Source of the DNA: Chondrosia reniformis
Taxonomy: Eukaryota; Porifera; Demospongiae; Chondrillida; Chondrillidae
Assembly (NCBI GenBank): GCA_947172415.1
Contig: OX359200.1
Coordinates: 6,388,501-6,452,500, forward strand
Length of the DNA stretch: 64,000 nt
Direction: 5' to 3'
The notes below the pieces were generated by a model that worked only from the letters and a program-made list of their open reading frames with translations, ran no database searches and was not told the DNA's origin. Positions 23,101-45,482 of the stretch are shown here, piece by piece. The stretch's first letter is position 1; each line of letters begins with the position of its first letter. The position numbers were made by a program, and so were the translations under genes.

Positions 23101-23109
23101 TTTTAAATG
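23101..23109. repeat. Left 9-bp target site duplication
   Basis: TTTTAAATG lies between the NFS1 ATG (23,100, minus) and the left terminal inverted repeat. The same 9 bases directly follow the right terminal repeat at 43,707-43,715. Confidence 0.7.
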
Positions 23110-23129
23110 TACAGTGGCTAGAGTGCCGG

Positions 23130-23876
23130 TGTCACAGGATATTTTATCCCCCGTGTATTTTATCCGCCCGGATAGTATAAACTATCCCGGCGGATAAACG
23201 AAACTAGGAAATTTTATCCTACCCTAGGATAATTTATCCTACCCTAGGATAATTTATCTAATACTCTACGATTTAAGCGTATCATCACGAAATCCTTTAG
23301 ATACATAAGAAGGAACCTTGGGCTGAAAAAGGGATACGATTTTAGGATTTTCAGCCAATAGGAAAGTGACAAAATAGAAAAGCGCTGAAAATGTCTATAA
23401 AAACCGTTGCATTTTCGTCCGTAACAGTTTAATAACCGATCTACAATGACATCGACGATACTATCAGAGGAGAGATGCCAAGCACTCGTTCACTATATCC
23501 ACGGAAGCAAGGAAAATCGACCCGAATATCCTGACGGATTCACAGCTAACGATAAGAGAGCGTTGAGACAGCAGGCCGAGAAATTTGATGAACGAAACGT
23601 TGTTCTATTTCGAAAAACAGATTATGTATTTTATTAAGTATTTTGTACTTATTTATTAATAATAAACATTCATATATGACAAATGATTAGGATAAACTAT
23701 CCTAGTATATTTCATCCCCCAGATAAAATATCCTAGGATATACTATCCTAGAGTAGGATATAATTTCCTAGGGTAGGATAAATTTTCCTAGGATAAAGTA
23801 TCCCAGGGGGATATTTTATCCTAGGATACTTTATCCGGGGGGATAAAATTTAGGGGGGATAGAATTTACTGTGACA
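23130..23876. mobile_element. Nested Ginger-like DNA transposon, non-autonomous
   Basis: It is bounded by TGTCACAGGATATTTTATCC on the left and the complement of TGTCACAGTAAATTCTATCC on the right, with CCGG on both sides (23,126-23,129 and 23,877-23,880). Both subterminal regions repeat CCTAGGATAAATTATCC-like motifs. TGTNR termini and a 4-bp duplication are known features of Ginger transposons. The internal ORF has an integrase-flank flavour. It interrupts the left terminal repeat of the 20.6-kb element. Confidence 0.6.
23446..23637 (+). CDS. Short ORF in the Ginger-like element, truncated transposase N-terminus
   Basis: The 63-residue ORF begins MTSTILSEERCQALVHYIHG and contains DKRALRQQAEKFDERNVVLF. 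The latter resembles the segment before the H2C2 zinc-binding region of Gypsy/Ginger integrases (KRxLRRKAxxFxxxxGVLY type). It stops right after that region, so no integrase core exists. A TATAAAA at 23,395 lies 51 bases upstream and could be a promoter. Assignment is by eye; it may be a captured fragment that is not translated. Confidence 0.4.
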   Translation: MTSTILSEERCQALVHYIHGSKENRPEYPDGFTANDKRALRQQAEKFDERNVVLFRKTDYVFY

Positions 23877-23880
23877 CCGG

Positions 23881-24050
23881 TACCGGTAACGGAACGTATT
23901 TGCGTTAAAGTGCCGGTACCGGTAATTTTATGAGTGACTACGTTTGGACCAGTACCGGCACCATTACCTTTTTGGTTAAGGCGACGGTACCGTATTTTAA
24001 GAATTGACACGTTCGTTACGGGTACTGGCATCATTAATTTTTGGATTAGT
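23881..24050. repeat. Subterminal GGTACCGGTA-type repeats of the large element
   Basis: Several imperfect copies of GTGCCGGTACCGGTAA and CCAGTACCGGCACCATTACC lie in both orientations, continuing the terminal-repeat sequence. They may be transposase-binding sites (inference). Confidence 0.45.
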
Positions 24051-24189
24051 GTAACTTTGTACGATATTTATTATAAATTCCAATATTTTGCCTAAGTAAA
24101 TTGTAAAGTAAAGTAAGAGTAAAAATATAGTCTACATCCTGGTAAAAGTTTTTTTGGAATTCTCTTCAGAATTGATTTTACATATATAT

Positions 24190-24370
24190 CACAACGAGAA
24201 AAAAGAAGAAAAAACGACCCAAGCGTGTTTGGAACTCAATCGGTTCCCAGACCCTTCAACAAATATCGCGATATGCTAACGATAAGGAAAAAAGAAAAAA
24301 CGTCCATTCTCAGTGGGTTACAACAAATATCGCGATATACTGACGATAAGAAAGAAGAAAAAACCAGTCA
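24190..24370. repeat. Short direct repeats with CGCGATAT and a segment shared with 61,167
   Basis: CAACAAATATCGCGATATGC at 24,258 and CAACAAATATCGCGATATAC near 24,322 start two about 65-bp direct repeats ending in AAAGAAGAAAAAAC. The stretch at 24,190-24,242 (core GACCCAAGCGTGTTTGGAAC) recurs almost exactly at 61,169-61,222. Confidence 0.6.
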
Positions 24371-24435
24371 CGTTAGCCAGCAGAGACTGCTGTTACCGTC
24401 GAGCACCACGAGGAGGTGTGACTTGGATTTTGCTC

Positions 24436-24740
24436 GACGCAGGGAGTTCACGTTACCATCCACAATGCGAGCCGTCCTTCCATCGCTGGTCGTCTGGGGC
24501 CAGGATCGTTGGTAACGCCTAACTGGTGCAGTTTCGGCTTTGGTAGTCACGGAGTGACAGAACCGGCCTTATCCCTCCCCGGGTTCCGTTGTATCGATAA
24601 ATCGATAATTGGTGAGCACATCCCCATGGCACCAACCGATACAGGGCAGCTACGGAACCTAGACACTACCAAGCCAACGAGTTTGGACTTACTTCCTTAC
24701 CCGAGGCTCCACGCTAGCAGGCCTGACTGGTCATGTTAAA
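24436..24740. other. Diverged relative of the GC-rich satellite-island core
   Basis: Blocks shared with the island cores, in the same order, are GTTACCATCCAC, GGATCGTTGGTAACG, GTCACGGAGTGAC-AGAACC, ATTGGTGAGCACATCCCCAT, GGCACCAACCGAT and CACTACCAA. The reading frame open in the islands is closed here by TAA and TAG, so what is conserved is nucleotide sequence. Short inverted repeats (TTGGTG with CACCAA; GTTACCA with TGGTAAC) are kept. Function is unknown. Confidence 0.55.
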
Positions 24741-24944
24741 ATGGACTATTTATATGCAATTACGTTGTGAAATGATAAAGAAAAAAAGGGAAAAAAACTG
24801 ATTACCGTTATAATTGATCCAACTCCAGGAGCTTCCTTTTATTCTACAGGCTTCTCTCTCGCATCACCCTGCCACCAGCGCGGTGGTGATGGAAGTGGAA
24901 ATATACTAGTTATAAATATGCACTATATTCAGTTCCTAAGTATG

Positions 24945-25009
24945 GCTGGTGCTTAACATTTTATACAATAATAATGTTATAGTTTATTATATTAATTTAA
25001 GCACCAGCT
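24945..25009. repeat. Inverted repeat GCTGGTGCTTAA / TTAAGCACCAGC
   Basis: A 12-bp stem encloses an AT-rich loop of about 40 bases, immediately before the satellite. Related GGTGCTTA motifs recur at the far side (43,141-43,440 and 43,577), so the satellite is bracketed by similar hairpins. Confidence 0.55.
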
Positions 25010-27185
25010 ATATAACTCTTCCAAATGGAGACATAAGAGGCTTAAACTTCGTGTAGGCACTCACAGGCATGTATGAAACATTTCCAAAGAGGTTTGGAAA
25101 TTTTTATAAATCTTAACATTTGCCCTATCTCTCACAATACATTAATTTCGTATATCAGTATTTCAATGTACATTTGGTGCTGTAACTCTTCCAAATGGAG
25201 ACATAAGAGGCTTAAACTTGGTGTAGGCACTCACAGGTATGTATGAAACATTTCCAAAGAGGTTTGGAAATTTTTATAAATCTTAACATTTGCCCTATCT
25301 CTCACAATACATTAATTTCGTATATCAGTATATCAATGTACATTTGGTGCTGTAACTCTACCAAATGGAGACATAAGAGGCTTAAACTTGGTGTAGGCAC
25401 TCACAGACATGTATGAAACATTTCCAAAGAGGTTTGGAAATTTTTATAAATCTCAACATTTGCCCTATCTCTCACCATACATTAATTTTGTATATCAGTA
25501 TTTCAATGTACATTTGGTGCTGTAACTCTACCAAATGGAAAGACACGAAGCCTAAACTTGGTGTAGGCACTCACAGACATGTATGAAACATTTCCAAAGA
25601 GGTTTTGAAATTTTTATAAATCTTAACATTTGCCCTATCTCTCACCATACCTTAATTTCGTATATCAGTATATCAATGTACATTTGGTGCTGTAACTCTT
25701 CCAATTGGAGACATAAGAGGCTTAAACCTGGTGTAGGGACTCATGGACATGTATGAAACATTTCCAAAGAGGTTTTGAAATTTTTATAAATCTCAACATT
25801 TGCCCTATCTCTCACCATACATTAATTTTGTATATCAGTATTTCAATGTACATTTGGTGCTGTAACTCTACCAAATGGAAAGATACGAAGCCTAAACTTG
25901 GTGTAGGGACTCACAGACATGTATGAAACATTTCCCAAGAGGTTTGGAAATTTTTATAAATCTTAACATTTACCCTATCTCTCACCATACATTAATTTCG
26001 TATATCAGTATTTCAATGTACATTTGGTGCTGTAACTCTACCAAATGGAAAGATAGGAAGCTTAAACTTGGTGTAGGGACTCATGGACATGTATGAAACA
26101 TTTCCAAAGAGGTTTTGAAATTTTTATAAATCTTAACATTTACCCTATCTCTCACCATACATTAATTTCGTATATCAGTATTTCAATGTACATTTGGTGC
26201 TGTAACTCTACCAAATGGAAAGATACGAAGCTTAAACTTGGTGTAGGCACTCACAGACATGTATGAAACATTTCCAAAGAGGTTTGGAAATTTTTATAAA
26301 TCTTAACATTTGCCCTATCTCTCACCATACATTAATTTTGTATATCAGTATTTCAATGTACATTTGGTGCTGTAACTCTACCAAATGGAAAGATACGAAG
26401 CTTAAACTTAGGGTAGGCACTCACAGACATATATGAAACCATTCCAATTGGGTTTTGGAATTTTTATAAATCTTAACATTTGCCCTATCTCTCACCATAC
26501 ATTAATTTCGTATATCAGTATATCAATGTACATTTGGTGCTGTAACTCTTCCAATTGGAGACATAAGAGGCTTAAACCTGGTGTAGGCACTCACAGACAT
26601 GTATGAAACATTTCCAAAGAGGTTTGGAAATTTTTATAAATCTTAACATTTGCCCTATCTCTCATCATACATTATTTTGTATATCAGTATATCAATGTAC
26701 ATTTGGTGCTGTAACTCTACCAAATGGAAAGATACGAAGCTTAAACTTGGTGTAGGGACTCATGGACATGCATGAAACATTTCCAAAGAGGTTTGGAAAT
26801 TTTTATAAATCTTAACATTTGCCCTATCTCTCACCATACATTAATTTCGTATATCAGTATTTCAATGTACATTTGGTGCTGTAACTCTACCAAATGAAAA
26901 GATACGAAGCTTAAACCTTAAACTTGGTGTAGGGACTCACAGACATGTATGAAAAATTTCCAAAGAGGTTTGGAAATTTTTATAAATCTTAACATTTGCC
27001 CTATCTCTCACCATACATTAATTTCGTATATCAGTATTTCAATGTACATTTGGTGCTGTAACTCTTCCAAATGGAGACATAAGAGGCTTAAACTTGGTGT
27101 AGGCACTCACAGGCATGTATGAAACATTTCCAAAGAGGTTTGGAAATTTTTATAAATCTTAACATCTGCCCTATCTCTCACCATA
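25010..27185. repeat. 170-bp satellite array, block 1
   Basis: There are about 13 head-to-tail copies of a 170-bp unit; for example TGTAACTCT recurs at 25,181, 25,351 and 25,521. Each unit holds a dyad around TTTCCAAAGAGGTTTGGAAA and the invariant TTTGCCCTATCTCTCAC. Two main variants alternate: CTTCCAAATGGAGACATAAG and CTACCAAATGGAAAGATACG. Confidence 0.97.
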
Positions 27186-28285
27186 GATACACCTCATAAT
27201 TGCGTAATAGTAAAAAATGTCCGACCGTGAGAAGGTAGAACACAAATATTCGATTCAGTACTATGTATATGAATCTGATAAACTAGAACGCTTTCAAAGC
27301 TTTTTTTATGCACATGGATATACACTTTGTAGTACTTGATTGTTGGTGAAGTAGTATCTTTCCATATAAACTATCTGGAAGCCGTTATAGTGAAATTTCG
27401 CCAATCGACAGCCAACGAAACTCCAAAGAAATAAAATTGGACCATACCGAACGCTACCATCCACGACGCTCAGAGGCCGGGATCGGTGGTAACGTTCAGC
27501 TTATCGAATCTGCCGAAGCAAATTACTACTGAGTTGAACTTTGGGTGTCACTTGCGTGAGAAGAACCAGTTCTTCTCGATATGGCCGACTCATATGAATC
27601 CTAAGATATCAGATGCCAATCCCACATTACGTGGAACCCCCCCGAAATCCGGATTATTGGTGAGCACGTCTCTATGGCACCAACCGATTAGGAGACAGCT
27701 TCAGAGTCTAAGCGCTACCAACCCCTATGGGAACAGCTACCACCATAGAGATGTGTCCAGGTAGGCCTACTTTATAAGGTTTTGCGCTTCTATTTAAACA
27801 ACAAAATTTCGAAAGAAAACGGTTGTGGTTGGCGCTTTTCCATACTTAAGAATAGGGTATTTGCGAGAAAAATATAGTCCAAATATTTCAAGTTCATTAC
27901 AGATCAAGGCATCGTTTCAAGCAACTTTGCAAGTATACTCAGTTTTTGTGGTCCATCTCGAAACTGGGAAAAATGGATAAAACCCTGTGTGTGTCTTCAT
28001 AGGCCGAGGAGAGGAGCTTTTCTGGTCCCACGTAGAAACGATTTTAGCGAGAGGTGTTCCGATATCAACGTTTAATACTATAACCAGCCACACTCAATTT
28101 CAAGTGCTGTAAAACGATAATGGCTGCATACATCTATATAGACATCTTCTGATAGCTGTGTTTAAGGTGCCTCTGTGGGTTTCTAGTTGCCCCATGCTTG
28201 TAAAAACCTATATAACTTGAGGTGTTCCGATAATTTGCATAATATTATCGCACGATCTAAATACTATACCGTCTTCTATGCTAGT
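27186..28285. repeat. Satellite island 1 (1.1 kb) with GC-rich core
   Basis: Non-satellite sequence begins GATACACCTCATAATTGCGT and ends at CTAGTGTACATTAGGCGCTG. The core at about 27,450-27,800 is GC-rich relative to its surroundings. Its 92-codon plus frame (27,486-27,764) has no recognisable domain. Islands 2 and 3 appear identical. Confidence 0.85.
27450..27800. other. Conserved GC-rich core of island 1, candidate structured element
   Basis: This contains GCTACCATCC with GGATCGGTGGTAAC, GTCACTTGCGTGA, CAAGAACC-type AGAACCAGTTCTTCT (a perfect AGAA/TTCT dyad) and TTGGTGAGCACGTCTCTATG followed by GCACCAA. It is nearly invariant even in the diverged island 4. It could be a structured RNA, a protein-binding array or a promoter; the sequence does not decide. 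Confidence 0.5.
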
Positions 28286-29266
28286 GTACATTAGGCGCTG
28301 TAACTCTTCCAAATGGAGACATATGAGGCACTCACAGACATGTATGAAACATTTCCAAAGAGGTTTGGAAATTTTTATAAATCTTAACATTTGCCCTATC
28401 TCTCACCATACATTAATTTTGTATATCAGTATTTCAATGTACATTTGGTGCTGTAACTCTACCAAATGGAAAGATACGAAGCTTAAACTTAGGGTAGGCA
28501 CTCACAGACATATATGAAACCATTCCAATTGGGTTTTGGAATTTTTATAAATCTTAACATTTGCCCTATCTCTCACCATACATTAATTTCGTATATCAGT
28601 ATATCAATGTACATTTGGTGCTGTAACTCTTCCAATTGGAGACATAAGAGGCTTAAACCTGGTGTAGGCACTCACAGACATGTATGAAACATTTCCAAAG
28701 AGGTTTGGAAATTTTTATAAATCTTAACATTTGCCCTATCTCTCATCATACATTATTTTGTATATCAGTATATCAATGTACATTTGGTGCTGTAACTCTA
28801 CCAAATGGAAAGATACGAAGCTTAAACTTGGTGTAGGGACTCATGGACATGCATGAAACATTTCCAAAGAGGTTTGGAAATTTTTATAAATCTTAACATT
28901 TGCCCTATCTCTCACCATACATTAATTTCGTATATCAGTATTTCAATGTACATTTGGTGCTGTAACTCTACCAAATGAAAAGATACGAAGCTTAAACCTT
29001 AAACTTGGTGTAGGGACTCACAGACATGTATGAAAAATTTCCAAAGAGGTTTGGAAATTTTTATAAATCTTAACATTTGCCCTATCTCTCACCATACATT
29101 AATTTCGTATATCAGTATTTCAATGTACATTTGGTGCTGTAACTCTTCCAAATGGAGACATAAGAGGCTTAAACTTGGTGTAGGCACTCACAGGCATGTA
29201 TGAAACATTTCCAAAGAGGTTTGGAAATTTTTATAAATCTTAACATCTGCCCTATCTCTCACCATA
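28286..29266. repeat. 170-bp satellite array, block 2
   Basis: There are about six units, the first shortened at the island junction (ATGAGGCACTCACAGAC lacks about 20 bases). From about 28,390 the block repeats the end of block 1, as part of a 2,081-bp duplication. Confidence 0.95.
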
Positions 29267-30366
29267 GATACACCTCATAATTGCGTAATAGTAAAAAATG
29301 TCCGACCGTGAGAAGGTAGAACACAAATATTCGATTCAGTACTATGTATATGAATCTGATAAACTAGAACGCTTTCAAAGCTTTTTTTATGCACATGGAT
29401 ATACACTTTGTAGTACTTGATTGTTGGTGAAGTAGTATCTTTCCATATAAACTATCTGGAAGCCGTTATAGTGAAATTTCGCCAATCGACAGCCAACGAA
29501 ACTCCAAAGAAATAAAATTGGACCATACCGAACGCTACCATCCACGACGCTCAGAGGCCGGGATCGGTGGTAACGTTCAGCTTATCGAATCTGCCGAAGC
29601 AAATTACTACTGAGTTGAACTTTGGGTGTCACTTGCGTGAGAAGAACCAGTTCTTCTCGATATGGCCGACTCATATGAATCCTAAGATATCAGATGCCAA
29701 TCCCACATTACGTGGAACCCCCCCGAAATCCGGATTATTGGTGAGCACGTCTCTATGGCACCAACCGATTAGGAGACAGCTTCAGAGTCTAAGCGCTACC
29801 AACCCCTATGGGAACAGCTACCACCATAGAGATGTGTCCAGGTAGGCCTACTTTATAAGGTTTTGCGCTTCTATTTAAACAACAAAATTTCGAAAGAAAA
29901 CGGTTGTGGTTGGCGCTTTTCCATACTTAAGAATAGGGTATTTGCGAGAAAAATATAGTCCAAATATTTCAAGTTCATTACAGATCAAGGCATCGTTTCA
30001 AGCAACTTTGCAAGTATACTCAGTTTTTGTGGTCCATCTCGAAACTGGGAAAAATGGATAAAACCCTGTGTGTGTCTTCATAGGCCGAGGAGAGGAGCTT
30101 TTCTGGTCCCACGTAGAAACGATTTTAGCGAGAGGTGTTCCGATATCAACGTTTAATACTATAACCAGCCACACTCAATTTCAAGTGCTGTAAAACGATA
30201 ATGGCTGCATACATCTATATAGACATCTTCTGATAGCTGTGTTTAAGGTGCCTCTGTGGGTTTCTAGTTGCCCCATGCTTGTAAAAACCTATATAACTTG
30301 AGGTGTTCCGATAATTTGCATAATATTATCGCACGATCTAAATACTATACCGTCTTCTATGCTAGT
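29267..30366. repeat. Satellite island 2 (1.1 kb), duplicate of island 1
   Basis: I see no difference from island 1, offset by exactly 2,081 bases. The GC-rich core is at about 29,531-29,881. Confidence 0.9.
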
Positions 30367-33300
30367 GTACATTAGGCGCTGTAACTCTTCCAAATGGAGA
30401 CATATGAGGCACTCACAGACATGTATGAAACATTTCCAAAGAGGTTTGGAAATTTTTATAAATCTTAACATTTACCCTATCTCTCACCATACATTAATTT
30501 CGTATATCAGTATTTCAATGTACATTTGGTGCTGTAACTCTACCAAATGGAAAGATACGAAGCTTAAACTTGGTGTAGGCACTCACAGACATGTATGAAA
30601 CATTTCCAAAGAGGTTTGGAAATTTTTATAAATCTTAACATTTGCCCTATCTCTCACCATACATTAATTTTGTATATCAGTATTTCAATGTACATTTGGT
30701 GCTGTAACTCTACCAAATGGAAAGATACGAAGCTTAAACTTAGGGTAGGCACTCACAGGCATATATGAAACAATTCCAATTGGGTTTTGGAATTTTTATA
30801 AATCTTAACATTTCCCCTATCTCTCACCATACATTATTTTGTATATCAGTATTTCAATGTACATTTGGTGCTGTAACTCTACCAAATGGAAAGATACGAA
30901 GCCTAAACTTGGTGTAGGGACTCATGGACATGTATGAAACATTTCCAAAGAGGTCTTGAAATTTTTATAAATCTTAACATTTGCCCTATCTCTCACCATA
31001 CATTAATTTCGTATATCAGTATTTCAATGTACATTTGGTGCTGTAACTCTTCCAAATGGAGACATAAGAGGCTTAAACTTGGTGTAGGCACTCACAGGCA
31101 TGTATGAAACATTTCCAAAGAGGTTTGGAAATTTTTATAAATCTTAACATTTGCCCTATCTCTCACCATACATTAATTTTGTATATCAGTATTTCAATGT
31201 ACATTTGGTGCTGTAACTCTACCAAATGGAAAGATACGAAGCTTAAACTTAGGGTAGGCACTCACAGACATATATGAAACAATTCCAATTGGGTTTTGGA
31301 ATTTTTATAAATCTTAACATTTGCCCTATCTCTCACAATACATTAATTTTGTATATCAGTATTTCAATGTACATTTGGTACTGTAACTCTACCAAATGGA
31401 GACATAAGAGGCTTAAACTTGGTGTAGGGACTCACAGACATGTATGAAACATTTCCCAAGAGGTTTGGAAATTTTTATAAATCTTAACATTTGCCCTATC
31501 TCTCACCATACATTAATTTCGTATATCAGTATATCAATGTACATTTGGTGCTGTAACTCTACCAAATGGAAAGATACGAAGCTTAAACCTTAAACTTGGT
31601 GTAGGGACTCACAGACATGTATGAAACATTTCCAAAGAGGTTTGGAAATTTTTATAAATCTTAACATTTGCCCTATCTCTCACCATACATTAATTTTGTA
31701 TATCAGTATTTCAATGTACATTTGGTGCTGTAACTCTACCAAATGGAAAGATACGAAGCTTAAACCTTAAACTTGGTGTAGGCACTCACAGACATGTATG
31801 AAACATTTCCAAAGAGGTTTGGAAATTTTTATAAATCTTAACATTTGCCCTATCTCTCACCATACCTTAATTTCGTATATCAGTATATCAATGTACATTT
31901 GGTGCTGTAACTCTACCAAATGGAAAGATACGAAGCTTAAACTTAGGGTAGGCACTCACAGACATATATGAAACAATTCCAATTGGGTTTTGGAATTTTT
32001 ATAAATCTTAACATTTGCCCTATCTCTCACAATACATTAATTTTGTATATCAGTATATCAATGTACATTTGGTGCTGTAACTCTACCAAATGGAAAGATA
32101 CGAAGCTTAAACTTGGTGTAGGGACTCATAGACATGTATGAAACATTTCCAAAGAGGTTTGGAAATTTTTATAAATCTTAACATTTGCCCTATCTCTCAC
32201 CATACATTAATTTCGTATATCAGTATATCAATGTACATTTGGTGCTGTAACTCTTCCAATTGGAAACATAAGATGCTTAAACCTGGTGTAGGGACTCATG
32301 GACATGTATGAAACATTTCCAAAGAGGTTTTGAAATTTTTATAAATCTCAACATTTGCCCTATCTCTCACCATACATTAATTTTGTATATCAGTATTTCA
32401 ATGTACATTTGGTGCTGTAACTCTACCAAATGGAAAGATACGAAGCCTAAACTTGGTGTAGGGACTCATAGACATGTATGAAACATTGCCAAAGAGGTTT
32501 GGAAATTTTTATAAATCTTAACATTTGCCCTATCTCTCATCATACATTATTTTGTATATCAGTATTTCAATGTACATTTGGTGCTGTAACTCTACCAAAT
32601 GGAAAGATAGGAAGCCTAAACTTGGTGTAGGGACTCATGGACATGTATGAAACATTTCCAAAGAGGTTTTGAAATTTTTATAAATCTTAACATTTACCCT
32701 ATATCTCACCATACATTAATTTCGTATATCAGTATTTCAATGTACATTTGGTGCTGTAACTCTACCAAATGGAAAGATACGAAGCTTAAACTTGGTGTAG
32801 GGACTCACAGACATGTATGAAACATTTCCAAAGAGGTTTGGAAATTTTTATAAATCTTAACATTTGCCCTATCTCTCACCATACATTAATTTTGTATATC
32901 AGTATTTCAATGTACATTTGGTGCTGTAACTCTACCAAATGGAAAGATACGAAGCTTAAACTTAGGGTAGGCACTCACAGACATATATGAAACCATTCCA
33001 ATTGGGTTTTGGAATTTTTATAAATCTTAACATTTGCCCTATCTCTCACCATACATTAATTTTGTATATCAGTATTTCAATGTACATTTGGTGCTGTAAC
33101 TCTTCCAAATGGAGACATAAGAGGCTTAAACTTGGTGTAGGCACTCACAGACATGTATGAAACATTTCCAAAGAGGTTTGGAAATTTTTATAAATCTTAA
33201 CATTTGCCCTATCTCTCACCATACATTAATTTCGTATATCAGTATTTCAATGTACATTTGGTGCTGTAACTCTACAAAATGAAGACATACGAGGCTTAAA

Positions 33301-33393
33301 CTTGGTGTAGGCACTCACAGGCATGTATGAAACATTTCCAAAGAGGTTTGGAAATTTTTATAAATCTTAACATCTGCCCTATCTCTCACCATA
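30367..33393. repeat. 170-bp satellite array, block 3
   Basis: There are about 18 units mixing the two main variants. A recurrent sub-variant has AATTCCAATTGGGTTTTGGA in place of the TTTCCAAAGAGGTTTGGAAA dyad and keeps the inverted symmetry. Confidence 0.97.
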
Positions 33394-34493
33394 GATACAC
33401 CTCATAATTGCGTAATAGTAAAAAATGTCCGACCGTGAGAAGGTAGAACACAAATATTCGATTCAGTACTATGTATATGAATCTGATAAACTAGAACGCT
33501 TTCAAAGCTTTTTTTATGCACATGGATATACACTTTGTAGTACTTGATTGTTGGTGAAGTAGTATCTTTCCATATAAACTATCTGGAAGCCGTTATAGTG
33601 AAATTTCGCCAATCGACAGCCAACGAAACTCCAAAGAAATAAAATTGGACCATACCGAACGCTACCATCCACGACGCTCAGAGGCCGGGATCGGTGGTAA
33701 CGTTCAGCTTATCGAATCTGCCGAAGCAAATTACTACTGAGTTGAACTTTGGGTGTCACTTGCGTGAGAAGAACCAGTTCTTCTCGATATGGCCGACTCA
33801 TATGAATCCTAAGATATCAGATGCCAATCCCACATTACGTGGAACCCCCCCGAAATCCGGATTATTGGTGAGCACGTCTCTATGGCACCAACCGATTAGG
33901 AGACAGCTTCAGAGTCTAAGCGCTACCAACCCCTATGGGAACAGCTACCACCATAGAGATGTGTCCAGGTAGGCCTACTTTATAAGGTTTTGCGCTTCTA
34001 TTTAAACAACAAAATTTCGAAAGAAAACGGTTGTGGTTGGCGCTTTTCCATACTTAAGAATAGGGTATTTGCGAGAAAAATATAGTCCAAATATTTCAAG
34101 TTCATTACAGATCAAGGCATCGTTTCAAGCAACTTTGCAAGTATACTCAGTTTTTGTGGTCCATCTCGAAACTGGGAAAAATGGATAAAACCCTGTGTGT
34201 GTCTTCATAGGCCGAGGAGAGGAGCTTTTCTGGTCCCACGTAGAAACGATTTTAGCGAGAGGTGTTCCGATATCAACGTTTAATACTATAACCAGCCACA
34301 CTCAATTTCAAGTGCTGTAAAACGATAATGGCTGCATACATCTATATAGACATCTTCTGATAGCTGTGTTTAAGGTGCCTCTGTGGGTTTCTAGTTGCCC
34401 CATGCTTGTAAAAACCTATATAACTTGAGGTGTTCCGATAATTTGCATAATATTATCGCACGATCTAAATACTATACCGTCTTCTATGCTAGT
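33394..34493. repeat. Satellite island 3 (1.1 kb), duplicate of island 1
   Basis: It appears identical to islands 1 and 2, offset from island 1 by 6,208 bases. The GC-rich core is at about 33,658-34,008. Confidence 0.9.
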
Positions 34494-37400
34494 GTACATT
34501 AGGCGCTGTAACTCTTCCAAATGGAGACATATGAGGCACTCACAGACATGTATGAAACATTTCCAAAGAGGTTTGGAAATTTTTATAAATCTTAACATTT
34601 ACCCTATCTCTCACCATACATTAATTTCGTATATCAGTATTTCAATGTACATTTGGTGCTGTAACTCTACCAAATGGAAAGATACGAAGCTTAAACTTGG
34701 TGTAGGCACTCACAGACATGTATGAAACATTTCCAAAGAGGTTTTGAAATTTTTATAAATCTTAACATTTGCCCTATCTCTCACCATACATTAATTTCGT
34801 ATATCAGTATTTCAAAGTACATTTGGTGGTGTAACTCCTCCAAATGGAGACATAAGAGGCTTAAACTTGGTGTAGGCACTCATAGGCATGTTTGAAACAT
34901 TTCCAAAGAGGTTTGGAAATTTTTATAAATCTTAACATTTGCCCTATCTCTCACCATACATTAATTTCGTATATCAGTATATCGATGTACATTTGGTGCT
35001 GTAACTCTACCAAATGGAAAGATACGAAGCTTAAACTTAGGGTAGGCACTCACAGACATATATGAAACAATTCCAATTGGGTTTTGGAATTTTTATAAAT
35101 CTTAACATTTGCCCTATCTCTCACCATACATTAATTTTGTATATCAGTATATCAATGTACATTTGGTGCTGTAACTCTACCAAATGGAAAGATAGGAAGC
35201 TTAAACTAGGTGTAGGGACTCACAGACATGTATGAAACATTTCCAAAGAGGTTTGGAAATTTTTATAAATCTTAACATTTGCCCTATCTCTCACCATACA
35301 TTAATTTCGTATATCAGTATTTCAATGTACATTTGGTGCTGTAACTCTACCAAATGGAAAGATACGAAGCTTAAACTTGGTGTAGGCACTCACAGACATA
35401 TATGAAACAATTCCAATTGGGTTTTGGAATTTTTATAAATCTTAACATTTGCCCTATCTCTCACCATACATTAATTTCGTATATCAGTATTTCAATGTAC
35501 ATTTGGTGCTGTAACTCTACCAAATGGAGACATAAGAGGCTTAAACTTGGTGTAGGCACTCACAGACATGTATGAAACATTTCCAAAGAGGTTTGGAAAT
35601 TTTTATAAATCTTAACATTTACCCTATCTCTCACAATACATTAATTTTGTATATCAGTATTTCAATGTACATTTGGTGCTGTAACTCTACCAAATGGAAA
35701 GATACGAAGCTTAAACTTGGTGTAGGCACTCACAGGCATGTATGAAACATTTCCAAAGAGGTTTGGAAATTTTTATAAATCTTAACATTTGCCCTATCTC
35801 TCACCATACATTAATTTCGTATATCAGTATATCAATGTACATTTGGTGCTGTAACTCTACCAAATGGAAAGATACGAAGCTTAAACTAGGTGTAGGGACT
35901 CACAGACATGTATGAAACATTTCCAAAGAGGTTTGGAAATTTTTATAAATCTTAACATTTGCCCTATCTCTCACCATACATTAATTTCGTATATCAGTAT
36001 TTCAATGTACATTTGGTGCTGTAACTCTTCCAAATGGAGACATAAGAGGCTTAAACTTGGTGTAGGCACTCACAGGCATGTATGAAACATTTCCAAAGAG
36101 GTTTGGAAATTTTTATAAATCTTAACATTTGCCCTATCTCTCACCATACATTAATTTCGTATATCAGTATATCAATGTACATTTGGTGCTGTAACTCTAC
36201 CAAATGGAAAGATACGAAGCTTAAACTTAGGGTAGGCACTCACAGACATATATGAAACAATTCCAATTGGGTTTTGGAATTTTTATAAATCTTAACATTA
36301 ATTTGCCCTATCTCTCACCATACCTTAATTTCGTATATCAGTATATCAATGTACATTTGGTGCTGTAACTCTTCCAATTGGAGACATAAGAGGCTTAAAC
36401 CTGGTGTAGGGACTCATGGACATGTATGAAACATTTCCAAAGAGGTTTTGAAATTTTTATAAATCTCAACATTTGCCCTATCTCTCACCATACATTAATT
36501 TCGTATATCAGTATATCAATGTACATTTGGTGCTGTAACTCTACCAAATGGAAAGATACGAAGCTTAAACTTGGTGTAGGGACTCACAGACATGTATGAA
36601 ACATTTCCCAAGAGGTTTTGAAATTTTTATAAATCTTAACATTTGCCCTATCTCTCACCATACATTAATTTCGTATATCAGTATATCTATGTACATTTGG
36701 TGCTGTAACTCTACCAAATGGAAAGATCCAAAGCTTAAACTAGGTGTAGGGACTCACAGACATGTATGAAACATTGCCAAAGAGGTTTGGAAATTTTTAT
36801 AAATCTTAACATTTGCCCTATCTCTCACCATACATTAATTTCGTATATCAGTATTTCAATGTACATTTGGTACTGTAACTCTTCCAAATGGAGACATAAG
36901 AGGCTTAAACTTGGTGTAGGCACTCACAGGCATGTATGAAACATTTCCAAAGAGGTTTGGAAATTTTTCTAAATCTTAACATTTGCCCTATCTCTCACCA
37001 TACATTAATTTTGTATATCAGTATTTCAATGTACATTTGGTGCTGTAACTCTACCAAATGGAAAGATCCAAAGCTTAAACCTGGTGTAGGGACTCACAGG
37101 CATGTATGAAACATTTCCAAAGAGGTTTGGAAATTTTTATAAATCTTAACATTTGCCCTATCTCTCACAATACATTAATTTTGAATATCAGTATTTCAAT
37201 GTACATTTGGTGCTGTAACTCTTCCAAATGGAGACATAAGAGGCTTAAACTTGGTGTAGGCACTCACAGGCATGTATGAAACATTTCCAAAGAGGTTTGG
37301 AAATTTTTATAAATCTTAACATTTGCCCTATCTCTCACCATACATTAATTTCGTATATCAGTATATCAATGTACATTTGGTGCTGTAACTCTACCAAATG

Positions 37401-40400
37401 GAAAGATACGAAGCTTAAACTTAGGGTAGGCACTCACAGACATATATGAAACCATTCCAATTGGGTTTTGGAATTTTTATAAATCTTAACATTTGCCCTA
37501 TCTCTCACAATACATTAATTTTGTATATCAGTATATCAATGTACATTTGGTGCTGTAACTCTACCAAATGGAAAGATACGAAGCTTAAACTTGGTGTAGG
37601 GACTCATGGACATGTATGAAACATTTCCAAAGAGGTTTGGAAATTTTTATAAATCTTAACATTTGCCCTATCTCTCACCATACATTAATTTCGTATATCA
37701 GTATATCTATGTACATTTGGTGCTGTAACTCTACCAAATGGAAAGATACGAAGCTTAAACTTGGTGTAGGGACTCATGGACATGTATGAAACATTGCCAA
37801 AGAGGTTTGGAAATTTTTATAAATCTTAACATTTGCCCTATCTCTCACCATACATTAATTTCGTATATCAGTATTTCAATGTACATTTGGTGCTGTAACT
37901 CTTCCAAATGGAGACATAAGAGGCTTAAACTTGGTGTAGGCACTCACAGGCATGTATGAAACATTTCCAAAGAGGTTTTGGAATTTTTATAAATCTTAAC
38001 ATTAATTTGCCCTATCTCTCACCATACATTAATTTTGTATATCAGTATATCAATGTACATTTGGTGCTGTAACTCTACCAAATGGAAAGATACGAAGCTT
38101 AAACTTGGTGTAGGCACTCACAGACATGTATGAAACATTTCCAAAGAGGTTTTGAAATTTTTATAAATCTTAACATTTGCCCTATCTCTCACCATACATT
38201 AATTTCGTATATCAGTATATCTATGTACATTTGGTGCTGTAACTCTACCAAATGGAAAGATACAAAGCTTAAACTTGGTGTAGGCACTCACAGGCATGTA
38301 TGAAACATTGCCAAAGAGGTTTGGAAATTTTTATAAATCTTAACATTTGCCCTATCTCCCACCATACATTAATTTCGTATATCAGTATATCTATGTACAT
38401 TTGGTGCTGTAACTCTACCAAATGGAAAGATACGAAGCTTAAACTTGGTGTAGGCACTCACAGGCATGTATGAAACATTGCCAAAGAGGTTTGGAAATTT
38501 TTATAAATCTTAACATTTGCCCTATCTCTCACAATACATTAATTTCGTATATCAGTATTTCAATGTACATTTGGTACTGTAACTCTTCCAAATGGAGACA
38601 TAAGAGGCTTAAACTTGGGGTAGGCACTCACAGGCATGTATGAAACATTTCAAAGAGGTTTTGGAATTTTTATAAATCTTAACATTTGCCCTATCTCTCA
38701 CCATACATTATTTTGTATATCAGTATTTCAATGTACATTTGGTGCTGTAACTCTACCAAATGGAGACATAAGAGGCTTAAACTTGGTGTAGGCACTTACA
38801 GGCATGTATGAAACATTTCCCAAGAGGTTTGGAAATTTTTATAAATCTTAACATTTGCCCTATCTCTCACCATACATTAATTTCGTATATCAGTATTTCA
38901 ATGTACATTTGGTGCTGTAACTCTACCAAATGGAAAGATACGAAGCTTAAACTTGGTGTAGGGACTCATGGACATGTATGAAACATTTCCAAAGAGGTTT
39001 GGAAATTTTTATAAATCTTAACATTTGCCCTATCTCTCACCATACATTAATTTTGTATATCAGTATTTCAATGTACATTTGGTGCTGTAACTCTACCAAA
39101 TGGAAAGATACGAAGCTTAAACTTAGGGTAGGCACTCACAGACATATATGAAACAATTCCAATTGGGTTTTGGAATTTTTATAAATCTTAACATTTGCCC
39201 TATCTCTCACCATACATTATTTTGTATATCAGTATTTCAATGTACATTTGGTGCTGTAACTCTACCAAATGGAGACATAAGAGGCTTAAACTTGGTGTAG
39301 GGACTCACAGAAATGTATAAAACATTTCCAAAGAGGTTTTGAAATTTTTATAAATCTTAACATTTGCCCTATCTCTCACCATACATTAATTTCGTATATC
39401 AGTATTTCAATGTACATTTGGTGCTGTAACTCTTCCAAATGGAGACATAAGAGGCTTAAACTTGGTGTAGGCACTCACAGGCATGTATGAAACATTTCCA
39501 AAGAGGTTTGGAAATTTTATAAATCTTAACATTTGCCCTATCTCTCACCATACATTAATTTTGTATATCAGTATTTCAATGTACATTTGGTGCTGTAACT
39601 CTACCAAATGGAAAGATACGAAGCCTAAACTAGGTGTAGGGACTCATGGACATGTATGAAACATTTCCAAAGAGGTTTTGAAATTTTTATAAATCTTAAC
39701 ATTTGCCCTATCTCTCACCATACATTAATTTCGTATATCAGTATATCAATGTACATTTGGTGCTGTAACTCTACCAAATGGAAAGATACGAAGCTTAAAC
39801 TTGGTGTAGGGACTCATAGACATGTATGAAACATTGCCAAAGAGGTTTGGAAATTTTTATAAATCTTAACATTTGCCCTATCTCTCACCATACATTAATT
39901 TCGTATATCAGTATTTCAATGTACATTTGGTGCTGTAACTCTACCAAATGGAGACATAAGAGGCTTAAACTTGGTGTAGGCACTCACAGGTATGTATGAA
40001 ACATTTCCAAAGAGGTTTGGAAATTTTTATAAATCTTAACATTTGCCCTATCTCTCACCATACATTAATTTCATATATCAGTATATCAATGTACATTTGG
40101 TGCTGTAACTCTACCAAATGGAAAGATACGAAGCTTAAACTTAGGGTAGGTACTCACAGACATATATGAAACAATTTCAATTGGGTTTTGGAATTTTTAT
40201 AAATCTTAACATTTGCCCTATCTCTCACCATACATTAATTTTGTATATCAGTATTTCAATGTACATTTGGTGCTGTAACTCTATCAAATGGAAAGATACG
40301 AAGCCTAAACTAGGTGTAGGGACTCATGGACATGTATGAAACATTTCCAAAGAGGTTTTGAAATTTTTATAAATCTTAACATTTGCCCTATCTCTCCCCA
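34494..40400. repeat. 170-bp satellite array, block 4
   Basis: About 35 units form the longest homogeneous block. Small indels include an extra TTAA near 36,300 and 38,003 (ACATTAATTTGCCC). Confidence 0.97.
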
Positions 40401-41204
40401 TACATTAACTTAACAAATGTACATTTAGTACCGTAACACTGTCAATTCGGTAAATATGAAGCTTAAACTTGGTATTTACATTCACAGATATGTATGAAAC
40501 ATTTCTAAACAGTTTTAGAAATTTTGATTTCTACATAAATTTGCCCTATCTCTCCCCATACATTAGCTTAACAAATGTACATTTAGTGCCGTAACACTGT
40601 CAATTCGGTAAATATGAAGCTTAAACTTGGTATCTACATTCACAGACATGTATGAAACATTTCAAAACAGTTTTAGAAATTTGATTTTTACATAAATTTG
40701 CCCTATCTCTCCCCATACATTAACTTAACAAATGTATATACATTTAGTACGTAACTCTGCCAATTCAGTAAATATGAAGTTTAAACTTGGTGTCTACATT
40801 CACAGACATGTATGAAACATTTCCAAACAGTTTTAGAAATTTTGATTTCTACATAAATTTGCCCTATCTCTCCCCATACATTAACTTAACAAATGTATAT
40901 ACATTTAGTACGTAACTCTGCCAATTCAGTAAATATGAAGTTTAAACTTGGTGTCTACATTCACAGACATGTATGAAACATTTCCAAACAGTTTTAGAAA
41001 TTTTGATTTCTACATAAATTTGCCCTATCTCTCCCCATACATTAACTTAACAAATGTACATTTAGTGCCGTAACTCTGCCAATTTGGTAATAAGCTTAAA
41101 CTTGGTGTCTATATTCACAGACATGTATGAAACATTTCCAAACAGTTTTAGAAATTTTGATTTCTACATAAATTTGCCCTATCTCTCACCATACATTAAC
41201 TAAC
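40400..41204. repeat. Diverged satellite variant, about 158-bp unit
   Basis: There are about five units marked by CTATCTCTCCCCATACATTA, TTAACAAATGTACATTTAGT and CAAACAGTTTTAGAAATTTT. The TTTGCCCTATCTCTC core ties them to the 170-bp family. They form the diverged right shoulder of the array. Confidence 0.85.
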
Positions 41205-42279
41205 TTCTAATTGTGTAATACTATAAATGGCCGACCTTGAGTAGGTGTAAGAGTGAAAATGCGGTACTGTATATATTTCTGAAAAAATAGAACTCTTTGA
41301 AAGATTTCTTATACACATGGATATGCACTGTGTTGTACTTGATTGTTGTTGAAGTAGTATCTATCCACATATATTATATGGATGTCGTTAAAGTGAAATT
41401 TTGCCGATCGACGGCCAACGAAACTCCAAAGAAAAAAAGTTGGACCCTACCGAACGCTACCATCCACGACGCTCAGAGGCCGGGATCGGTGGTAACGCTC
41501 TGCCGAGTTGAGCTTTGGGTGTCACTTGCGTGAGAAGAACCAGTTCTTCTCGATATGGCCGACTCATATGAATCCTAAGATATCAGATGCCAATCCCACA
41601 TTACGTGGAACCCCCCCGAAATCCGGATTATTGGTGAGCACGTCTCTATGGCACCAACCGATTAGGAGACAGCTTCAGAGTCTAAGCGCTACCAACCCCT
41701 ATGGGAACCGCTACCACCATAGAGATGTGTCCAGGTAGGCCTACTTTATAAGGTTTTGCGCTTCTATTTAAACAAGAAAATTTCAAAAGGAAACGATTGT
41801 GGTTGGCGCAATTCCATACTTAAGAATAGGGTATTTGCGAGAAAAATGTAGTCAAATTATATCAAGTTAATTCGGGATGAGTGCATCGTTCCAAGCCATT
41901 TTAAAGGTATATCCAGTATTCGTGTTTCATCTAGAAACTGGGAAAAATGGATAGAATCCTGTAAGTGTCTTGATTGGCGGAGAAGACCAACTTTTCTGGT
42001 CCCATGTAGAAACGATTTTAGCGAGAGGTGTTCCGATATGAACGTAAACAGGTATAACCAGCCACACTCAATCTCAATTGCAGTAATAGCATAATGGCTA
42101 CCTGCCTCTATGTAAAGACCTTCTGACAGCTGCGTTCTGGACTGTCCCTGCGTGTTTCTAGTTGCCCCATTCATGTCAAAACATTTTAACTTGGTATGCC
42201 GATAATTTGCATAATACTATCGCACGATATATATGCTACACCATTTAAGGTCATATAGTAGAAATTTAATGCACGTACA
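41205..42279. repeat. Satellite island 4 (diverged flanks, conserved core)
   Basis: This is homologous to islands 1-3, but the outer parts differ by many substitutions and indels (start TAACTTCTAATTGTGTAATA versus CACCTCATAATTGCGTAATA). The central part at about 41,453-41,774 is almost the same as in island 1. Confidence 0.85.
41453..41774. other. Conserved GC-rich core of island 4
   Basis: From GAGTTGAGCTTTGGGTGTCA through CTTCTATTTAAACAA I find only two or three substitutions against island 1, including A to C within GGGAACMGCTACC. A 29-bp deletion lies before it. Sequence on each side is far more diverged. Confidence 0.6.
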
Positions 42280-43135
42280 TTAGAGTGCTGTAGCTCTGTC
42301 AAATGGAGAGATATGAAGCTGAAACATTGTGTAAGTATTCACAGAGATGTATGAAAGGCTTCCAATGAATTTTGCAAATTTTCATATCTACTCAAGTTTG
42401 CCCTATCTCACACCATACATTAACTTTGTATAGCAGTAATTCAAAGTACATTTACGGCTGTAACTCTTCCAAATGGAGAGATATGAATCTGAAACTCTAG
42501 CTCAGTATTCACAGAGATGAATAAAAGATTTCCAATGAGTTTTACAAATTTTGAAATCAACTCAAATTTGCCCTATCTCTCACCATACGTACATTAACTT
42601 TGTATAGCAGTAATTCAAAGTACATTAAGTTCTGTAACTCTTCCAAATGGAGCGATATGAATCTGAAACTCAATGTCAGTATTCACAGAGATGTATGAAA
42701 GGTTTACATTGAGTTTTGCAAATTTTAAAATCAACTCAAATTTGCCCTATCTCTCACCATACATTAACTTTGTATAGCAGTAATTGAAAGTACAGTTATG
42801 GCTCTAACTCTGCCAAATGAAGAGATATGGATATGATACTCTATATCAGTATTCACAGACATGTATGACACATTTCCAAACAGTTTTAGAAATTTTGATT
42901 TCTAAATAAATTTGCCCTATCTCTCCCCATACATTAACTTAACAAATGTACATTTAGTGCCGTAACACTGTCAATTCGGTAAATATGAAGGTAACTACAT
43001 TCACATACATGTATGAAACGTTTCCAAACAGTTTTAGAAATTTTGATTTCTACATAAATTTGCCCTATCTCTCCCCATACATTAACTTAACAAATGTACA
43101 TTTAGTTCCGTATTTCTGTCAAATCGGTAAATATA
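42280..43135. repeat. Outer diverged satellite copies
   Basis: About four units are marked by CTGTAACTCTTCCAAATGGA, GAGATATGAATCTGAAACTC and GTATAGCAGTAATTCAAAGT, then one or two units of the 158-bp variant up to about 43,135. Confidence 0.85.
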
Positions 43136-43140
43136 TACAT

Positions 43141-43459
43141 GGGGCTTGCCGGTGCTTAGAGCAAAAAGTGACTTAAGCACCGGCAAGCTTATAAGATGGG
43201 CATAGGACAGTTGGCAGACACTTGGACCCCCTTAACTGTCAGTTTGGGGCTTGCCGGTGCTTAGAGCAAACAGTGACATAAGCACCGGCAAGCTTATAAG
43301 ATGGGCATAGGACAGTTGGCAGACACTTGGACCCCCTTAACTGTCAGTTTGGGGCTTGCCGGTGCTTAGAGCAAAAAGTGACATAAGCACCGGCAAGCTT
43401 ATAAGATGCATATGGGCATAGGACAGTTGGCAGACACCTGGACCCCCTTAACTGTCAGT
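43141..43459. repeat. Three tandem 105-bp units with two hairpins each
   Basis: Units start at 43,141, 43,246 and 43,351 with GGGGCTTGCCGGTGCTTA. In each, GCTTGCCGGTGCTTA pairs with TAAGCACCGGCAAGC (15-bp stem), and GGACAGTT pairs with AACTGTC around ACTTGGACCCCC. The third unit has an 8-bp insertion (GCATATGG). No ORF. Confidence 0.85.
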
Positions 43460-43683
43460 CTCTTTCCTTTCCCTATTGCCATTTGCCGAGCGAAAGAAAT
43501 AACTAAGGTGTTCTATAACGTATTGTTTTATTATATACGACTACTTTAACACAGCTATGTGTACGGAGTTTGTAAGCTGGTGCTTATCGATGTACCGCAT
43601 TATACTTATATTATATTTAATATAATTCTTGACGGTGCTTAATGACTTTTGTATACACTTTAATAGCTCATGATCACTTTTTT
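43460..43683. other. Right subterminal region of the large element
   Basis: AT-rich, with GCTGGTGCTTATCGATGTAC at 43,578 and GACGGTGCTTAATGAC at 43,631, relatives of the GGTGCTTA hairpin arms. No gene is seen. Confidence 0.5.
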
Positions 43684-43706
43684 GTACCGGTACTCTAGCC
43701 ACTGTG

Positions 43707-43715
43707 TTTTAAATG
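43707..43715. repeat. Right 9-bp target site duplication
   Basis: TTTTAAATG immediately follows the right inverted terminus ACTCTAGCCACTGTG and equals 23,101-23,109. Confidence 0.7.
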
Positions 43716-43783: not shown

Positions 43784-45482
43784 TTAATTAGCAAACAAAG
43801 AGTCAATCTCTTTACGAATGTCTTCTGGAGGATCTTCTCCCCATCCAGACATCAGAACCTTACCATAGCGGGCTACATCAACTGTGCCACTAGCCGTCTT
43901 CTCTTTAAAGGAATTAATCTTGCCTTCTTCCACTAGAACATAATGCCAAGCTGGCCTGCCTCTGTCCTTACCACGAACAAGATGAACAAGAGGAGACAGA
44001 TAGTGGACAGCTTCTGAAATTTTAATTTTTTTCCCAATTTTTAAACTACAACTATTATGGGGAAAGCCACTTGTACACCTTATCCGAGTAGTATCATAAA
44101 AAAATTTTAGCTCTCCACTTAGTCGTTTATGTTTTCCACCCACCATTGTTAAATGGTTGGAAGGCTGATAAAGCTCAAGATTCATATTCACAAATGTTCC
44201 ACAACTGAGACCTTTCATAGATTCTGGCGGTGTCCATATCTTCAGTTGTATACCAGACTCATCAGCTCCATGGCCACACACTGGGACCCCTCTCTGGTCT
44301 AAAATGGCCGCCAGTCTAGGTATCCACTGTGAGGAGAAGGGGCAATCACAAAGAAGATAAAGGAGCTTGTGCCTAAAGTAATTCTCATAAGAATGGAATA
44401 TATCTTCAAAGGCAATTACTCCATCTCTGAAACACCAGTTACCTGTCTCTTCCTCACCAGATCCAACAAACCAAATTAGAGCTGTATTAGAGAAGATTGA
44501 AGAGATAATGTATTGTTTGTATACATACCTTTTAAATACCCTATATGTACCTCCAGGGGTTTTAGATTGTCTCAGGAAGTCCTCAATCAGAGTGAGGTAG
44601 AAATCCCTTGAAAGTACATATTCATTGTCATGATCAACGAACCACACAGGAACCAGATCACCAGTTCCTCTCACAGAGAAATCTACAACCGGATTGGTGC
44701 ATTTGGTGGGATCAGATTGCAAAAGTTCTAACATCTTAGAAATTTCCTTATTGACTCCTTCATATTCATTATCCACTATCCTTCGGATACCAGTGGCATT
44801 AGGATCAGTGTTGAAGATTATCAAGACTTCCAAATGTACAAAAAGAGCTACATGTATATACATGAAATTTAAGTGTACATGGCATAAGTGTAAATCAGTA
44901 CACGTTGAAGATGATACACACCTCGTGGCGAAGCTATATTCGTTGATTGAGTTTCTTCCTCTTTATTATCAATTTGTTGATTATCTATATAAAATCAATT
45001 GAAGAATTAAATACTCATGTACAAAGACACTTAAATCCTAAATTTCTTTAAAGATAGTAACTTCACTCATACTTGGTGCTTGCTTTGGAATTTGACTGAA
45101 TATGTTCCTTCCTGTACTATAACGATTCGGTTCTGTGTCAATCGAAAGGTCATTGAAGGAACTTGCTAGAATTGTTTCAGTTTTAGAATCAGAACTTCCA
45201 AAACTCGTATCACTCATTTTAGAAACTTTTGCTACAATATCTGCAATGTAATAACAATATAATTGCAAAAAGTGATCTACAATATTACAAAACTATAGTT
45301 TTTTCGGATTTATAGCAGGCACAACGCAGTTTACCTTCTCTGAGCAATTCTTCTCGTATGAGACCGGTACACAGGGCGTCCAGGATTTTGTCACCTTCAC
45401 GTAACGATAATTCTTCTATCTCTGGTTGTCTCTCGAGAAATCTTTTAACAATACCTTGCAGTACACTTCGTACTTTTTCCAT
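43784..45482 (-). CDS. Caspase-fold-like paralogue 1 (apparent pseudoenzyme)
   Basis: About five exons: 45,482-45,335, 45,243-45,085, 44,985-44,924, 44,825-44,551 and 44,481-43,784. The N-terminal 50 residues are helical (IVKRFLERQPEIEELSLREG), possibly a death-fold segment. Exon 4 carries VDFSVRGTGDLVPVWFVDHD and SRDFYLTLIEDFLRQ. Exon 5 begins ALIWFVGSGEEETGNWCFRD and continues LLYLLCDCPFSSQWIPRLA. These sit where peptidase C14 proteins have GHG and DxCxSG, but His is Ser and the nucleophile position is Pro. The C-terminus has LVHLVRGKDRGRPAWHYVLV and SGWGEDPPEDIRKEI. Family membership is inferred from motif spacing. Function is unknown; the context is three tandem copies. Confidence 0.65.

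Follow-up and report, generated by a model that had tools for sequence, protein, structure and literature searches.

The question of how satellite DNA comes to lie in gene-rich regions is posed by a locus in the sponge Chondrosia reniformis at which one event placed 18 kb of satellite about 1.9 kb ahead of the start codon of an NFS1-like gene. The locus lies in a 64,000-nucleotide stretch of contig OX359200.1 (C12), positions 6388501-6452500, the whole of which was analysed and is called the window; coordinates given without a contig are window positions, and genome searches covered 117.4 Mb in 15 contigs. Within it, a transposable unit of 20,597 bp (23110-43706), bounded by terminal inverted repeats (TIRs), encloses a 170-bp satellite array in place of the ordinary middle of a non-autonomous DNA transposon. 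We estimate at about 50% the probability that such a structure arises by repeated capture of satellite by transposon copies with a broken interior, and not from a transposon evolved for seeding satellites. Several copies of the family have satellite junctions of their own, so that capture would be readable event by event within one assembly.

The exact 9-bp direct repeat TTTTAAATG stands at 23101-23109 and 43707-43715, flush with both inverted repeat ends, as an earlier note on this DNA had described. The same note counted 21 of 22 matching bases between the termini, which is too high: they are identical at 19 of 20 core bases (ACAG onward), or at 19 of 22 when taken as a 22-mer. Its description of the interior as satellite with four islands is accurate as far as it goes; these make up 88% of the unit, and the two arms were left undescribed. 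The unit consists of a left arm of 1.9 kb, which contains a nested 753-bp miniature inverted-repeat transposable element (MITE), 18.1 kb of satellite together with the islands, and, on the right, an arm of 0.57 kb with three 105-bp repeats.

23101-23109, unstranded: left copy of the target duplication TTTTAAATG, directly adjoined at 23098-23100 by the ATG with which the NFS1-like gene begins on the minus strand
23110-23129, plus: left TIR
23128-23880, plus: nested 753-bp MITE with GTGTCACAG ends, which breaks up the left end of the element; 100% identical copies in loci L002, L003, L004 and L005
23881-24365, plus: left subterminal region, common to other family copies
24366-24754, minus: conserved core, with TATAAATAG at 24746-24754 (minus), 30 bp ahead of AGGCCT at 24719-24724 (minus)
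24366-24438, minus: hepatitis delta virus (HDV)-like ribozyme (RF02682, 47 bits, cut-off 44), helices checked, predicted cut between 24439 and 24438
24941-25012, unstranded: 72-bp palindromic unit of the ordinary element, the last element sequence ahead of the satellite
25013-43137, plus: 170-bp satellite array with four islands, replacing the ordinary middle
27157-28276, plus: island 1, of which the first ~29 bases are satellite
29238-30357, plus: island 2, identical to island 1
33365-34484, plus: island 3, identical to island 1
41161-42246, plus: island 4, whose minus strand has a core (about 41381-41740) related to 24366-24754
43138-43459, plus: three hairpin-bearing 105-bp repeats of the ordinary element
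43456-43685, plus: right subterminal region, common to other family copies
43686-43706, minus: right TIR
43707-43715, unstranded: right copy of the target duplication TTTTAAATG

Tandem Repeats Finder reported 94.8 copies of period 170 over 25013-41199, and with one satellite unit as query nhmmer matched 83 stretches between 25011 and 43134, every one of them on the plus strand. Islands 1-3 are 100% identical over 1,120 bp, and island 4, of 1,086 bp, is related to them at 84%. The ordinary middle is gone, since the satellite runs from the end of the palindrome to the first 105-bp unit. Within the array, stretches of 2,148 and 1,454 bp recur perfectly at offsets of 2,081 and 4,127 and show recent growth in place. 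The left junction between element and satellite, the one searched genome-wide, has the window as its sole match at up to 3 mismatches.

A dispersed family of TIR transposons

The TIR pattern CAGTGGCTAGAGTRCCGGT, allowing up to 2 mismatches, had 53 genome matches against 2 for the reversed control pattern. The right arm had 40 genome matches (38 candidates, all scored) and the left arm 58, from 40 scored of 98 candidates; the copies examined were 20 regions and the loci cut out by these searches. An ordinary copy is ordered as TIR, left subterminal region, core block, 72-bp palindrome, a middle of 0.5-1 kb, a variable 105-bp minisatellite, right subterminal region and TIR, and some copies are without one or another of these parts. 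The bases ahead of the TIR are CG in most copies and CA or TA in some.

The earlier note had proposed that other insertions with paired termini and 9-bp duplications would support a transposable unit, and they were found: among 11 copies with both TIRs the flanking 9-mers match at 9/9 in six, the remaining five scoring 8, 8, 7, 6 and 2. The mean match in the 11 true pairs is 7.7, compared with 4.3 in 110 cross-pairs, none of which reaches 9/9 and the best of which scores 8. The lowest-scoring copy (L063) has, in our own reading, TTTTTGAAA on both sides once four extra bases at the left end are skipped. The duplication length is taken as 9 because lengths of 6, 7, 8, 10 and 11 gave no perfect pair. 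The excess of TIR matches over the control and the recurrence of 9-bp duplications at other copies argue that the element is not a chance pairing, and support the locus being a copy of a dispersed, non-autonomous TIR DNA transposon family. The note's identification of a non-autonomous terminal-repeat element is thus upheld, with a dispersed family, paired ends, 9-bp duplications and no linked transposase. Apart from the two that carry satellite, the paired copies range in length from 118 bp to 2.9 kb. The shortest (L048, 1499-1616, at C13:4.64 Mb) consists of scarcely more than two TIRs and has a perfect 9-bp duplication.

The nested 753-bp MITE is 100% identical at several loci (the window, L002, L003, L004 and L005) and for that reason is probably very young. 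In L063, L072 and L074 the family TIR continues straight into GTGTCAC after CCGGT, and in L077 and L078 the same occurs slightly further inward, as if the MITE prefers the CCGGT/GTGTCAC site in the family TIR.

Satellite within and beyond the family

By our own tally, satellite stands at the interior breakpoint in 6 of 32 copies with a readable interior, and 26 of 32 have no satellite inside. The six are the window and copies at C7:7.358 Mb (L071), C2:1.729 Mb (L062), C10:5.995 Mb (L011), C6:7.999 Mb (L014) and C14:5.516 Mb (L021). The C7 copy has both TIRs and a 9/9 duplication, with 2.5 kb of satellite and an island between its 105-bp repeats and right end; the other four outside the window are half-elements abutting satellite. 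All six breakpoints differ, all lie between the palindrome and the right end, and they fall three to each orientation. No two copies sharing an element-satellite junction were found among those compared. A transposon serving as a vehicle would carry a central satellite shared by most copies, with common junctions; here satellite is present in 6 of 32 copies, the breakpoints differ and the left junction of the window is unique. Two further candidates for giant satellite-bearing copies were rejected: at C2:9.504-9.528 Mb, an apparent 24-kb pair has left-arm sequence directly behind its right end (L049) and was read as a short copy, and at C4:7.026 Mb the ordinary middle is present.

Outside the family the satellite is abundant. 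A 27-base satellite motif had 15,244 genome matches at up to 3 mismatches and none for the control; counted as one 170-bp unit per match, these would come to ~2.6 Mb (2.2% of the genome). Among the first hundred motif places listed, all on C1, many small arrays occur. The island search gave 983 candidates, 40 of which were scored and listed; these are 99-100% identical and are spread over C1, C2, C4, C5, C6, C8, C10, C11, C12 and C14. The array most like that of the window lies at C12:7.28 Mb, 0.87 Mb away on the same chromosome. At the one satellite edge read there (L087) and the one read at C1:6.44 Mb (L089) no TIR was detected, and resemblance to the transposon arms is limited to a 17-base chance-like match; a further locus at C12:7.28 Mb (L088) is still within the array and gives no edge. 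At the few edges read, then, the satellite exists without this transposon. Satellite or island sequence occurs within ~130 bp outside 5 of 38 TIR ends. The satellite was also considered as a transposon with ends of its own, a possibility rejected because array edges cluster in part of the unit, in broad phases, with no single terminus. At C1:6.44-6.57 Mb, where L089 is the one locus read, several small arrays have similar motif spacing, as though copies of a ~2-kb satellite-island-satellite unit had spread there.

Origin of the satellite-filled element

In the sequence of events that we favour, a non-autonomous TIR transposon, Mutator/Rehavkus-like in its 9-bp duplications, would have inserted directly before the NFS1-like start codon, and its hairpin-rich middle would then have been lost. 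Satellite would have taken its place during break or gap repair, templated by an array such as that 0.87 Mb away on the same chromosome, and would later have expanded in place by unequal exchange. Repair capture into a broken hairpin-rich middle would explain the kept ends, the lost middle, the private junctions and the two orientations; we infer the repair mechanism, the donor array, and that insertion preceded capture. Between island 1 and the island at C12:7.29 Mb, 11 of 934 bases differ, and the window arms depart from the family majority at 9 of 299, 7 of 183 and 7 of 209 bases (core, 4 of 392). Set beside the differences of the arms, that of the island points to an exchange of array material at a time when the element was already old.

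Several observations weigh against satellite capture by repair. The timing argument is weak, as arrays can homogenise later and the islands are 99% alike in the 40 matches listed from 983 candidates; the longer satellite alignments between the window and the C12:7.28 Mb arrays are mostly 92-96% identical (one 340-bp stretch reaches 99%). No repair intermediate was seen among the copies read, and the four half-elements may simply be truncated beside satellite. Both fully enclosed cases, the window and C7, have perfect 9-bp duplications, which leaves room for transposition of a copy already loaded. Capture elsewhere followed by delivery of the loaded 20-kb element to this site is accordingly a competing explanation, if on balance an unlikely one: intact ends and a perfect 9-bp duplication enclose the whole unit, and likewise the C7 copy with its 2.5 kb of satellite and island, but the left junction has no second copy, no two copies were found to share a junction, and the identity of the island to that at C12:7.29 Mb exceeds what the age of the element itself suggests. 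The same evidence bears on the proposal of the earlier note that satellite inside one transposable unit would seed arrays at new sites, which is weakly supported. In its favour, the C7 copy encloses satellite within a perfect duplication and a loaded copy could have moved; against it, 26 of 32 interiors lack satellite, the left junction is unique, the six breakpoints differ and occur in both orientations, and the satellite is found in many arrays elsewhere, of which the few edges read are without a TIR.

The satellite might instead spread by itself, for example through integrating extrachromosomal circles, one piece having landed in a resident element. The 15,244 motif matches, the many small arrays among the first hundred listed on C1, the presence of islands in many arrays and the TIR-less edges at C12:7.28 Mb and C1:6.44 Mb would fit such spread, which we consider rather doubtful: array edges give a broad phase cluster and no single terminus, the window has lost its ordinary middle and not merely gained satellite, and 6 of 32 interiors seems high for random landing, although the number of arrays is uncounted and this is no formal test. 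Mis-assembly, or unrelated ends that happen to stand as a pair, is a very improbable source of the enclosure. Satellite arrays do pose difficulties for assembly, and three islands are identical over 1,120 bp, but the ends belong to one family, stand in the right orientation and are flanked by a perfect duplication of the length seen at other copies, and a second complete satellite-bearing copy exists on C7.

A conserved core ending in a predicted HDV-like ribozyme

The ribozyme that Rfam matches in the left arm (minus strand, 47 bits against a cut-off of 44) ends a core of ~390 bp at its 3' end. Helices P1-P4 pair in the window copy and in the four variant copies tested, with the double pseudoknot and J4/2 of the class, and cleavage of the RNA is predicted at the 24439/24438 bond. 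In L064, L068 and L075 the altered helix positions still pair, through G-U, and in L067 one P4 pair is broken (our own reading). Over its 73 bases the ribozyme is identical in 16 of 23 distinct copies by our own count. A search with a 29-base piece of it, allowing up to 3 mismatches, gave 80 genome matches (61 exact) and none for the control; at least 42 lie near a family mark and the other 38 have no listed one nearby, the left-arm list used for this division being incomplete. Two of the 38 were read (L090 and L091). Compared with the window in 40-bp steps, they reach 90-100% identity over 24390-24749, drop to 82-85% at step 24350 and have flanks at 46-72%.

Divergence from the majority in 24 copies is 0.5-2.4% for the core and 0.7-13.5% for three other pieces of the arms. 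The conservation is most simply read as purifying selection; gene conversion or recent spread of the core might also produce it. The satellite islands have a related core of their own, in which no Rfam ribozyme match was detected: island 4 of the window and L089 are 97-100% identical over 41381-41740, and outside it 87-89% in the two preceding steps and 78% or less beyond. Upstream, TATAAATAG stands 30 bp ahead of AGGCCT in all 13 element rows, of 14, that include upstream sequence, and the corresponding position has TTTAAATAG in the five island rows and TATAAATAG in L089. The shared 37-base core motif had no exact match in viral_contigs. Folded as a single sequence, core and ribozyme did not outperform shuffled versions (z -0.75; 21 of 100 shuffles did equally well). 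In an alignment fold of the core, 9 of 37 pairs changed on both sides, mostly as one contrast between two groups; the alignment had 18 rows, two of them almost empty (L003 and L035), and a second alignment put the end of the region elsewhere. RNA structure beyond the ribozyme is on this basis a lead.

Tentatively, and as a proposal we would call unlikely, the TIR family and the islands may both carry relatives of one selected RNA gene, with a TATA box, an AGGCCT start 30 bp on, a structured RNA and, in the transposon, a 3' HDV-like ribozyme, so that the shared, near-invariant module and not the satellite is what is maintained. If this were true, transposon and satellite would be two carriers of the same selfish RNA, and both satellite capture and insertion directly before start codons would be consequences of that module. 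The core in any case poses the question of why a non-coding TIR transposon retains a near-unchanged, putatively self-cutting RNA while the rest decays.

Search for a transposase or autonomous partner

The earlier note saw no transposase in the element, and genome searches agree: none linked to the TIR family was found among the loci and matches examined. The PF10551 profile had eight genome matches, none near a listed TIR, Rehavkus-specific and PHD searches not having been made; the six loci cut out for these matches had no family TIR, and short chance-like matches only, in two. Two candidates for an autonomous partner were rejected. In L078 (C14:4.7915-4.7935 Mb), family TIRs and a perfect duplication enclose two fragments, one of an Ulp1 peptidase and one integrase-like; the latter is Ty3/gypsy-like by resemblance only, had no Pfam match and has 58 related matches elsewhere in the genome. 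The other, L070, has an OTU-domain reading frame but no partner TIR within its 9.6 kb.

Insertion next to start codons

The element ends 9 bp ahead of the NFS1-like start codon (minus-strand ATG, 23098-23100). An ATG lies directly beyond the duplication at 9 of 38 distinct ends against 0.96 expected (P = 3.6e-7, uncorrected for the choice of that offset among 58). These ends include L040, L043, L053 and the left end of the window; by our own judgement five of the nine look like gene starts, and the other four soon reach a stop codon. In the window, Pfam Aminotran_5 is matched in order by four exon frames on the minus strand, and the gene is presumably NFS1, the name used in the earlier note. 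The frame adjoining the C7 copy is, by resemblance, a putative CoA-transferase. On the far side of the element, a minus-strand reading frame ending at 43784 has no Pfam match; at an inferred empty site, two same-direction reading frames would be 77 bp apart. Between exons of the NFS1-like gene lie two C-rich minisatellites, with 22-bp and 29/35-bp units, at 19448-20448 and 21879-22276.

Comparison with known systems

HDV-like ribozymes are reported in R2 and other long interspersed nuclear elements (LINEs) (PMC7761336), that of R2 at the 5' end (PMC3414825). The motif described here, predicted from sequence, likewise lies within a mobile element, but in one with TIRs and at the 3' end of a conserved core. 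In the open-access literature we found no relevant report pairing an HDV-like ribozyme with terminal inverted repeats, and for such ribozymes with DNA transposons nothing relevant beyond R2. Satellite-like arrays within non-autonomous DNA elements are already known (PMC7492417, PMC4079207, PMC5139131), and the ribozyme motif may be more unusual than the satellite-filled element.

By its 9-bp duplication and the minisatellite before one end, the element resembles Rehavkus/Mutator. Mutator-like elements (MULEs) in general pick up foreign fragments, insert into genes or close to them and make target duplications of 8-11 bp; Rehavkus has 9-bp duplications, a minisatellite before its 3' TIR, TIRs of 26-400 bp and a PHD-finger transposase, with insects and annelids given as hosts (PMC6446971). 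The sponge family shares the 9-bp target duplication (9/9 in 6 of 11 paired copies, 8/9 in two more) and has 105-bp repeats by the right end in many copies, these being absent in some. No MULE or PHD-finger transposase was linked to it in the search made, which used PF10551, and its TIR seems short: about 20 bp are clearly inverted, and beyond these many copies have ACCGGTAACGG-like sequence at either end.

The Cg_HINE Helentrons of the Pacific oyster are non-autonomous, with satellite-like central repeats between flanking modules (PMC7492417). Like them, the window element is a non-autonomous DNA element with satellite-like repeats at its centre; unlike them, it has TIRs and 9-bp duplications. 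Such central repeats are normal in Cg_HINE and exceptional in the sponge family. The foldback element Tetris of Drosophila virilis is non-autonomous, and tandem repeats in its terminal repeats seeded a satellite (PMC4079207). The likeness extends to 8-9 bp duplications, tandem repeats inside, related satellite arrays of kb size and the absence of a detected autonomous partner. Unlike in Tetris, ordinary copies of the sponge family are without satellite, and the traffic seems to go from satellite into element.

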